Of a stretch of 64,000 bases of DNA, positions 2,330 to 4,266 are shown piece by piece. Position numbers and translations under genes: made by a program. The stretch lies in the IMG/VR virus record IMGVR_UViG_3300032829_000004, positions 33,803 to 97,802 of that record; one strand, 5' to 3'. The DNA is from a virus. The number at the start of each line of letters is the position of its first letter. Within the stretch, counting starts at the first letter, position 1. The notes under the pieces are model-generated. The model searched no databases and was not told where the DNA came from. It saw nothing but the letters and a program-made list of their open reading frames with translations.

Positions 2330-3511
2330 GTGCCGGTGACCGTTCCCGCGCACGTGCAAGCGGAGTCGCATCACTACGTGATGCACTTCCCGCCCCACCC
2401 GGCCAGGGCCGACGACCCGCATTACGCCGACTTCGACCACTACCACCGCAAGACGCGGGCGACCGCACGGTGTTACATCGGTGAGCGGATCGGGTTCGGC
2501 GACTGCAAAGACGCGCAGTGCAAGCCGTGCCCGCCTCCTGAAGACGGCGGCGAGCAGCCGGGGCTCGAGCTGCACCATGCCCACGTCGAGTTCAGCCTCC
2601 AGAACGGCGTCGACCTTGCCGCACTCGAGAAGGACTACCCCGGCATCTCCGACCCGTCTCAGGTCGGGGCATGGGTCGAGTCGGAGGCGAACTTCCGGTG
2701 GCTCTGCGTCGCCGAGGGATCGCCCGTGCTGATGGCGGACGGCACGACGCGCCCGATCGAGTATGTGCTACCCGGCGAGCAGGTCATCGGCAGAGACGGA
2801 CTGCCTCACCTTGTCGAAGTAACCAGCCGGAAGAGGTATCGCGGCGAGCTCGTATCGTTCGGCTGCGCGTCGTTCACGCCTGAGCACCGCATTCTTAGTC
2901 ATCGAGGCTGGCTCTCTGCGGCCCATGTTTTCCGCCAGGTCTGGATGCATGGCCCGGACGTGATCGCGCTGCGATGCGAACAGAACCAGATTCGCTCTGG
3001 CGTTGTCGGCGCGGTTCCCGTTGAGGTGGTGAACGCGCTCTCGCGGCAGCAGCGGGCGCCCTATCCAGTCTTCCATGACCACGACGTGCTCCATGCGATG
3101 CCGGCTGCCGTCCCAGATGCGGATGTAGCCCTTCGCGGTGACCCAGGCCGTCCGGTTGCCGACGTTCCACTTCGGGAGCTTGTTCAGCTCCGTGAGGCGG
3201 CACTCGTTGGTGCAGTAGCGCCCGACGTTCGGGCGGGAGCGCCAGTGCGCCGGTCGGTGGAAGGTCTTCCCGCAGGAGGCGCAAGCCCAGAGATGGGATG
3301 GGTCACAGCGATGCCCAGCCGGACGGCCGCTTTTACCGGATGGGTTCACGACCTAAGTGTAGCGCATAGCCACTCTTTTGTTGTGGGCGGCATCGCGGCT
3401 CATAACTGTGCCTGGCATCACAGGGGGGCGGCCGGGGCGCATACGGCGTCGCATTCCGATTGGGAGGCGAGCCAGTACGTGCAGGGTCTGATTTCGCAGG
3501 CGGCGAAGTGA
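2330..3511 (+). CDS. Intein-containing phage protein with HNH-like host protein
   Basis: 393-residue precursor from a GTG at 2330. Residues 126-359 are an intein. The exteins are residues 1-125 and 360-393, joining to a 159-residue mature protein with the junction L|C-A-W-H-H-R-G. The mature protein has several His/Cys motifs: GLELHHAHVEFSLQN near residue 79, then LCAWHHRG and HTASHSDWEA after splicing. This pattern resembles HNH-like small proteins of actinophages, but I am not certain it is a nuclease. The intein sits immediately before the conserved Cys-X2-His-His motif, as inteins often interrupt essential sites. The 3' end overlaps the following gene (GTGA). Confidence 0.75.
   Translation: MPVTVPAHVQAESHHYVMHFPPHPARADDPHYADFDHYHRKTRATARCYIGERIGFGDCKDAQCKPCPPPEDGGEQPGLELHHAHVEFSLQNGVDLAALEKDYPGISDPSQVGAWVESEANFRWLCVAEGSPVLMADGTTRPIEYVLPGEQVIGRDGLPHLVEVTSRKRYRGELVSFGCASFTPEHRILSHRGWLSAAHVFRQVWMHGPDVIALRCEQNQIRSGVVGAVPVEVVNALSRQQRAPYPVFHDHDVLHAMPAAVPDADVALRGDPGRPVADVPLRELVQLREAALVGAVAPDVRAGAPVRRSVEGLPAGGASPEMGWVTAMPSRTAAFTGWVHDLSVAHSHSFVVGGIAAHNCAWHHRGAAGAHTASHSDWEASQYVQGLISQAAK
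2705..3406 (+). other. Intein (234 aa, Hint fold) with antisense endonuclease insert
   Basis: Splicing blocks read on the + strand. Block A is C1-VAEGSPVLMADGTT (2705 on). Block B is SFTPEHRILSHRGW with the TxxH pattern (2855-2914). Block F is WVHDLSVAHSHSFVVGGI (from about 3338). Block G is AAHN with Cys as the +1 residue (3407). The nucleophiles Cys1, terminal Asn and Cys+1 and the penultimate His are all present, so the intein looks splicing-competent. The 141 residues between B and F show no sense-strand endonuclease motif. That stretch is instead the complement of an HNH endonuclease gene. Base composition is less GC-extreme near 3340-3410, consistent with separate mobility. Confidence 0.85.
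2768..3349 (-). CDS. HNH homing endonuclease encoded antisense inside the intein
   Basis: 193 residues from a GTG at 3349. An in-frame TAG two codons upstream makes this the first possible start. A four-cysteine finger (C23, C26, C46, C50) is followed by YIRIWDGSRHRMEHVVVMED and the HNH core RVHHLNGNRADNARANLVLF (H88, H107, H108, N110, N120), as in HNH_3-type homing enzymes. The finger and core (about 3283-2944) lie exactly in the interval between intein blocks B and F. The C-terminal 58 residues are complementary to the intein N-terminal blocks. A TACACT hexamer 15 nt before the start could drive a leaderless transcript. The protein would cut intein-less alleles to promote homing. Confidence 0.85.
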   Translation of the reverse strand: MNPSGKSGRPAGHRCDPSHLWACASCGKTFHRPAHWRSRPNVGRYCTNECRLTELNKLPKWNVGNRTAWVTAKGYIRIWDGSRHRMEHVVVMEDWIGRPLLPRERVHHLNGNRADNARANLVLFASQRDHVRAMHPDLAENMGRREPASMTKNAVLRRERRAAERYELAAIPLPAGYFDKVRQSVSADDLLAG

Positions 3512-4266
3512 CCGGCATCCCCGTCCAGGGCCTGTCGCCGGCAAAGGCTGGAACGGGCGTGACCAGGTCGATTGTCGTTCACCAGGTCCGCGTCGCGGAT
3601 GAGGGCCGCTGGCAGTGGCGGGGTTCCCGCCTGACCTGGCAGCCTCCGCACCGGTACGGGTTCGAGGCGGAGTTCGACCCGTTCCCCGCCTACCCCCACG
3701 ATCCTGACGCGGCCCGCAAGGCGGCCGATCATGTCGCCGCGTGCTGCCCTCCGCTGTGGGACGTGAACCTGTACCTCGCCGACCGCGAGGAGACGTCCCG
3801 GTCCAACGGCCACTCCAACGTCCACGAAGGCGGCCGGTACGAAGGCTCCGAATGGGTGCAGGACGAGCCGTCCGGGATGATCCTGCTGTCCGCCAAACGG
3901 ATACCGCCGCACCCTGCGATGACCCGCCACCTGGTGGCCCACGAGTACGGGCACAACGTCGAGTACATGCTGAACTCGCTGCGCGGCGGCAGGCACGTGG
4001 CATCATGCGACGACCTCGAACGCGAGTACGCGGAAATGCGCGGCCTCCCGCCGTCGTCGGTCCACCACGGGGAAGGCGCGACCTGGCACGACTCCGCCTG
4101 CGAGATCATGGCGTGCGACTTCCGGATCGTCGTCTGCGGCACCGAGGCGGAGTTCTGGCCCCACCCCGGCATCCCACGGCCGGAAGAAGTACCCGCCGTA
4201 CGGCAGTGGTGGGTCGGCGCGACGGGACAGCTGGCGGATGGCCTGGCCGCGAAGCAGGCGGCATGA
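3508..4266 (+). CDS. Zinc metalloprotease-like protein (HExxH)
   Basis: 252 residues from the GTG that overlaps the previous stop; a second GTG at 3559 is possible. The motif HLVAHEYGHNVEYM places HEYGH at residues 145-149, matching the zincin HExxH signature. A downstream WHDSACEIMACD stretch could supply a third ligand. An N-terminal aromatic-rich region (RWQWRGSRLTWQPP) precedes the catalytic part. In a late-gene setting it may process virion or cell-wall proteins. No signal peptide is seen, so it acts in the cytoplasm or leaves at lysis. Confidence 0.65.
   Translation: MTGIPVQGLSPAKAGTGVTRSIVVHQVRVADEGRWQWRGSRLTWQPPHRYGFEAEFDPFPAYPHDPDAARKAADHVAACCPPLWDVNLYLADREETSRSNGHSNVHEGGRYEGSEWVQDEPSGMILLSAKRIPPHPAMTRHLVAHEYGHNVEYMLNSLRGGRHVASCDDLEREYAEMRGLPPSSVHHGEGATWHDSACEIMACDFRIVVCGTEAEFWPHPGIPRPEEVPAVRQWWVGATGQLADGLAAKQAA

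Follow-up and report, generated by a model that had tools for sequence, protein, structure and literature searches.

In textbook mobile inteins, the homing endonuclease lies inside the spliced protein. Split inteins with a free-standing endonuclease between their halves are said to have been described by Dassa et al. in 2009. A hidden HNH endonuclease that is out of frame on the same strand, without splicing domains, is known as the ShiLan domain of phage DNA methylases (PMC11855218), and antisense homing endonuclease genes are known from nuclear group I introns (PMC9548176). Full-text literature searches returned no antisense endonuclease in an intein; a preprint on non-canonical actinobacteriophage intein architecture (doi 10.1101/2025.01.02.630785; cited as reference 7 in PMC11855218) fell outside those searches, and priority is therefore open.

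The locus described here combines an intein with an HNH endonuclease gene on the opposite strand. It lies in a window of 64,000 nucleotides, positions 33803-97802 of a 97,802-bp virus record. The genome is GC-rich and looks actinophage-like; a large serine-recombinase-like open reading frame (13344-11734, minus strand, judged by eye) suggests a temperate phage. The original prediction for this locus, made from the letters alone, knew of no characterized example. Within the literature searched, that assessment stands for antisense endonucleases of inteins; the layout is not unique, recurring in unrelated inteins. We consider it highly probable that the locus is a functional intein and that its homing endonuclease comes from an antisense gene with expression of its own, with splicing, expression, cleavage and homing all inferred.

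The intein and the gene opposite it

The features of the locus, in window coordinates, are as follows.

2330-3511, plus strand: host gene, one uninterrupted frame of 393 codons including the intein
2330-2704, plus strand: N-extein, part of the host gene
2705-3406, plus strand: intein of 234 residues, C1 to N234, placed by splicing blocks, profiles and the empty site in L002
2705-2743, plus strand: block A, CVAEGSPVLMADG, with the Cys1 codon at 2705-2707
2873-2911, plus strand: block B, FTPEHRILSHRGW, in which TxxH is T58-P-E-H61
2930-3343, plus strand: spacer between blocks B and F, without a sense domain; residues 96-191 (2990-3277) modeled as unfolded, pLDDT <50
3344-3409, plus strand: blocks F and G, VHDLSVAHSHSFVVGGIAAHN, plus Cys+1; sense dN/dS 0.15
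3407-3508, plus strand: C-extein, part of the host gene
3349-2768, minus strand: antisense HNH gene of 193 codons, GTG start at 3349, coding to 2771, stop at 2770-2768
3200-3283, minus strand: four-Cys zinc finger of the antisense HNH (C23, C26, C46, C50)
2954-3127, minus strand: HNH core, residues 75-132 (H88, H107-H108, N116, N120, H130), from profiles and AlphaFold2
2771-2929, minus strand: C-terminal run-out of the antisense frame, its last 53 codons, antisense through block B and the N-part
3356-3361, minus strand: -10-like TACACT within the codons of block F; six bases (TAGGTC) separate it from the start codon

The product of the host gene is a small phage protein in which the motifs C..C, LHHAHVE and N..LC..HH are conserved, and 8 of 19 members of its family match the HNH family phrog_8048 (best 1.1e-12). 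An extein profile found no match among solved structures, and neither the intein-bearing protein nor the joined extein (intein removed) had a tblastn match in named phages. In viral contigs, the joined extein has about 80 homologs, nearly all of them intein-free; an empty site in L002 (92% extein identity) aligns with 2336-2708 and 3406-3513 with nothing between. The +1 Cys codon (3407-3409) specifies a Cys that is invariant across the extein family. Insertion in frame at a conserved residue, with intein-free alleles in existence, is what is expected of an intein, and the invariant Cys together with the HNH matches of the family places it in the likely functional center of the host protein. 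Only the window and one relative (L071) carry the intein among ~81 homologs, and because it is this rare at the site, active spread there is not shown directly.

The element meets the criteria for a class 1 intein: a Cys at position 1, TxxH, F and G blocks with His-Asn, a +1 nucleophile and a HINT fold. Block F is VHDLSVAHSHSFVVGG, and the C terminus H233-N234 is followed by Cys+1; T58 and H61 are invariant in A5. On the sense strand, Pfam Hom_end_hint matches intein residues 1-42 (2.1e-6; score slightly under the Pfam cut-off), intein_Cterm matches at 0.025, just under cut-off, and an alignment profile finds the Mtu RecA intein (solved RecA mini-inteins) at 1e-19. In the AlphaFold2 model, most residues of 1-82 and 205-234 have pLDDT >90, whereas 96-191, the HNH-coding stretch, stays <50; only the two splicing parts fold. 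Foldseek with this model retrieves the RecA, DnaB and gp41-1 mini-inteins (RecA 1.9e-5; target TM 0.70-0.77). Profile searches and the unfolded spacer give no sense endonuclease between blocks B and F, and the element does not qualify as an in-frame bifunctional intein. A split intein was rejected, as 2330-3511 is one continuous frame. We infer that the element is a functional intein with protein splicing activity.

The antisense frame is in codon register with the sense frame, its codons being exact reverse complements of sense codons. Its product matches PHROG HNH families (7.1e-13) and Pfam HNH_3 (4.3e-5; bit score slightly under the curated cut-off), and tblastn retrieves phage HNH proteins at 2e-11, the top matches being ShiLan-type out-of-frame HNH genes of mycobacteriophage methylases. 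With a core pattern of HHxNG...N...NL and this profile support, the product qualifies as a member of the HNH (HNH_3) family. AlphaFold2 models residues 71-140 with pLDDT 82-95 and has low confidence outside this core (mean 66). The best PDB fold match of the model is I-HmuI, which is not significant (E 0.78); an HNH alignment profile against the PDB also finds I-HmuI (1u3e, E 0.0014), the only nuclease among its matches. The case rests on homology and selection and not on the length of the frame, because long antisense open reading frames are cheap at this GC content.

The original prediction placed the intein at 2705-3406, with blocks A, B, F and G, Cys1, TxxH, His-Asn and Cys+1 on the plus strand and no sense endonuclease between B and F, and in all of this it was correct; the intein has exactly these bounds, inside an uninterrupted gene. 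It further read that exact interval, in antisense, as a four-Cys finger and an HNH core. Both are present; the frame itself overruns the interval by 53 codons (2771-2929).

Relatives, selection on each strand and a promoter-like element

A contig from another metagenome sample (L071) has the same intein, at the same site and with the same antisense HNH; it aligns without gaps over 702 bp, its HNH starting with ATG where the window has GTG. A further relative (L247) shares the extein family and site. Its intein has 274 residues and is 33% identical to that of the window, and its antisense HNH is 45% identical over 118 residues and passes the Pfam cut-off (43.7 vs 24.8 bits). C1 is kept in both relatives, and the splicing residues are all kept across the three diverged copies.

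The HNH start lies 57 nt from the intein end in all three, preceded by TAnnnT and six bases (window, TACACT-TAGGTC-GTG; L071, TACGCT-TAGGTC-ATG; L247, TACACT-TATGTC-ATG). This is the layout of a leaderless actinobacterial promoter. Within block F it requires NTA for Leu or Ile and GTA for Val, a codon choice seen in 3 of 56 other GC-rich inteins surveyed. A sigma-70 promoter scan gave no -35 box and no sigma-70 consensus. Our inference is that the element acts as a leaderless promoter of the antisense HNH and that expression of the nuclease does not depend on splicing; the latter relies on the conserved promoter-like layout, without transcript data.

In the mechanism we propose, the N- and C-terminal parts would form a HINT splicing domain that excises itself from the host protein, and the sense spacer would be a tolerated, probably disordered linker that needs only to stay stop-free. 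The antisense strand of the spacer would encode a zinc-finger HNH nuclease, probably with its own promoter in the codons of block F and leaderless translation. The nuclease probably cuts intein-less host alleles near the insertion site, and repair of the cut allele would copy intein and nuclease in together. As to origin, the inverted invasion of a mini-intein by an HNH gene, put forward in the original prediction, is inference only, no HNH-free intein having been found at this site.

The HNH gene could instead be a separate parasite using the intein as a harmless landing site, with a target inside the intein or elsewhere and not in the empty extein, so that the intein is not moved. We think this unlikely, while keeping it in play. 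HNH homing genes are free-standing in many phages, the ShiLan HNH occupies a gene without a splicing element (PMC11855218), and in two of the Pectobacterium phages treated below (Koroua and Pappous) the N-intein shows, over the 43 nt that precede the HNH, as much divergence as the exteins. Yet intein and HNH occur together at the same extein site in three diverged relatives, no HNH-free version of the window intein was found at its site, and the HNH start and the promoter-like element lie inside block F, which ties the HNH to the intein.

Selection on the two strands was compared as dN/dS (Nei-Gojobori) for the window-L071 pair, computed per region and strand. Values for the N-part are 0.42 in sense and 0.96 in antisense, and those for the C-part 0.15 and 1.33; in the spacer the sense value is 0.94 and the antisense value 0.31 (bootstrap P(antisense >= sense) = 0.005). 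Differences at sense codon positions 1/2/3 number 20/10/28 in the N-part, 48/16/31 in the spacer and 2/2/6 in the C-part; in the spacer, the excess no longer sits at sense position 3 but at sense position 1, the third position of antisense codons. Because selection over 2771-2929 is on the sense strand (antisense dN/dS 0.96), this run-out is probably not functional nuclease, and the antisense frame of L071 ends earlier than that of the window. The functional, conserved nuclease occupies about 2930-3349.

Several of the checks proposed along with the prediction came out in its favor. Strand-wise dN/dS places the antisense spacer under purifying selection in this pair; database searches find intein families on the sense strand and HNH families on the antisense strand; and intein-less alleles are abundant. 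Two outcomes had been named as refuting it. Neither occurred: a conserved sense endonuclease is absent from the homologous inteins at the same site (L071 and L247), and the antisense frame is intact in both.

The same figures bear on whether the intein still splices. That the element survives merely as an HNH insertion compatible with an open frame, like the ShiLan domain, is improbable given sense dN/dS of 0.42 and 0.15 in the splicing parts, splicing residues kept in three diverged copies and an insertion that precedes the invariant Cys of the host protein; splicing data are nonetheless lacking, the spacer is unfolded, and ShiLan elements persist without splicing domains. We give very little weight to a second sense-strand function of the spacer, such as a binding domain, alongside the antisense HNH: its sense identity between window and L071 (59%) could be taken to support one, against which stand the sense dN/dS of 0.94, the absence of a family match and pLDDT <50. 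The idea that the antisense frame is a functionless relic or a by-product of high GC draws on the facts that in GC-rich genes the register antisense frame is commonly open and that the openness of the window's sense frame is itself unremarkable (P ~0.2-0.34), and it is rejected as scarcely credible on selection and homology, namely antisense dN/dS of 0.31 vs 0.94 in sense, HNH homology at 7e-13, and an L247 homolog that is still 45% identical and retains the start site. A splicing intein with its own antisense nuclease remains our preferred reading of the locus.

Recurrence in viral contigs and sequenced phages

Intein C termini were located by DNA motif in viral contigs and genomes, and all six frames upstream of them were searched with an HNH profile. 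An antisense HNH nested in an open intein frame was found in the codon-register frame in the window, L071/L141 and L247, and in frame -2 in seven further loci (L330, L335, L336, L351, L353, L428 and L381). The intein of L330 is joined to a terminase-like extein and that of L381 to a helicase-like extein; the remaining five show comparable junctions when judged by eye. In L381, both Intein_splicing and HNH_3 score above their Pfam cut-offs. Within the frame -2 set, the HNHs are 49-55% identical and the same DNA read in sense 25-38%, and Shine-Dalgarno-like sequences stand at several of the antisense starts. An N-terminal helix-turn-helix was seen in the frame -2 HNHs.

For the openness of the sense frames, synonymous codons of each antisense HNH were resampled with local codon usage. 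Between 1.5 and 8.8 sense stops are expected and none is observed in any of the ten cases, with P of 0.0003-0.0035 in six and 0.06-0.21 in the other four, the window included. The window's open sense frame could, taken alone, be chance. As some cases are related, the P values are not to be multiplied; the absence of stops in all ten indicates that both strands are maintained across the set, which is not provable from the window alone.

No in-frame HNH was found in the surveyed inteins. A family-specific C-terminal pattern had 0 matches in 84,980 bacterial and archaeal genomes, and a general C-terminal pattern had 22 in such genomes, of which one had an HNH and none an antisense HNH. Scans of viral contigs with a single protein or a two-row alignment (intein or HNH query) returned nothing or only L071. 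One further C-terminal pattern was set aside, as it returned mostly toxin-like HINT proteins ending HNAG and not inteins; it did yield L247. HINT domains ending VYNLTVEGHHTFIAGGIRVHNAG were very numerous (L201-L203 and most of L206-L317) and are likewise toxin-like rather than inteins.

Same-strand arrangements were also observed. An HNH in the +2 frame of an open intein frame is common in viral contigs (44 loci, among them L088, L091, L095-L097, L105, L106, L115-L117, L133 and L154), and 15 pairs of such inteins have dN/dS of 0.03-0.21 in the HNH frame and 1.0-2.8 in the intein frame. HNHs in the +1 frame occur in L099, L100, L151 and L158, of which L100 and L158 were read over their whole length, and, with weak support only, in L119 and L150.

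Terminase inteins with an antisense HNH are present in eight sequenced phages, among phages of back-to-back layout, some of them cultured: Pectobacterium phages Koroua, Amona, Taid, Pappous, Sabo, Ymer and Abuela, and Dickeya phage Setonix. In Koroua the gene (L430; related loci L434-L438) is

PQ008972.1, 2451-4715: terminase gene with intein

and the intein has 288 residues, with a 232-residue antisense HNH starting 125 nt from its end. The host protein was identified as the terminase large subunit by its position beside the portal gene and by matches to annotated terminases; the annotated records label the gene as encoding a hypothetical protein. A further 149 phages match the terminase at 60-80%, without an intein among the matches listed. 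The terminase inteins of Mesorhizobium phage Cp1R7A-A1 and Acinetobacter phage ME3 have an HNH motif in no frame.

Between Koroua and Pappous, the exteins differ almost only at sense position 3 (dN/dS 0.02), and in the HNH region the differences lie chiefly at sense position 2, the third position of antisense codons, with dN/dS of 0.27 in antisense and 0.71 in sense. Between Koroua and Ymer (L430 and L435), differences in the terminase gene fall mainly in coding positions 361-1200, which cover most of the intein and the downstream flank; this cluster resembles one conversion tract, an inference that is only suggestive.

On balance, we favor the view that antisense-endonuclease inteins are a recurrent, so far undescribed phage class that arose at least twice, in codon register in an HNH-like host protein and in frame -2 in terminase and helicase. 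One strand would be selected as nuclease and the other only to stay translatable; in the lineage of the window, the promoter would lie in a splicing motif and homing would be uncoupled from host-gene expression.

Comparison with known systems

Each partner at such a locus constrains the codons of the other, giving a clean natural case of antisense gene overlap in which selection is measurable on both strands. There is also a warning for annotation. In sense searches these inteins look like endonuclease-less mini-inteins and the nuclease goes unannotated; in Koroua and those of its relatives that are annotated, the entire gene carries the label hypothetical protein. The eight sequenced phages are a ready experimental system in which splicing and homing are directly testable.

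The I-HmuI/HNH_3 phage homing endonucleases share the HNH core with the window protein; I-HmuI is intron-encoded in sense, whereas in the window protein a four-Cys finger precedes the core. ShiLan elements have an HNH of the same family, overlap with an open host frame and proposed leaderless translation (PMC11855218). Their HNH is in another frame of the same strand and lacks splicing domains, unlike the full intein and antisense HNH of the window, and an element of this type was rejected here, since the HNH is on the opposite strand and splicing blocks are present. Nuclear group I introns with antisense homing endonuclease genes (PMC9548176) are likewise splicing elements with the nuclease gene on the opposite strand; those elements, however, are RNA introns in rDNA, whose spacer can do without an open frame, whereas the spacer of the window must be translated in sense. 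Split inteins with a free-standing endonuclease also keep that gene separate from the intein protein; they consist of two halves, whereas the window intein is one continuous chain with the nuclease gene overlapping it in antisense. Bifunctional inteins of the PI-SceI and Mtu RecA type resemble the window in the HINT domain, C1, TxxH, HN, the +1 nucleophile, an endonuclease between blocks B and F and a conserved insertion site. Their endonuclease is in frame; that of the window is on the opposite strand and outside the precursor, requiring separate transcription and translation. Because the two functions lie on the same DNA but on opposite strands, mobility of the element is in principle possible without expression of the host gene.
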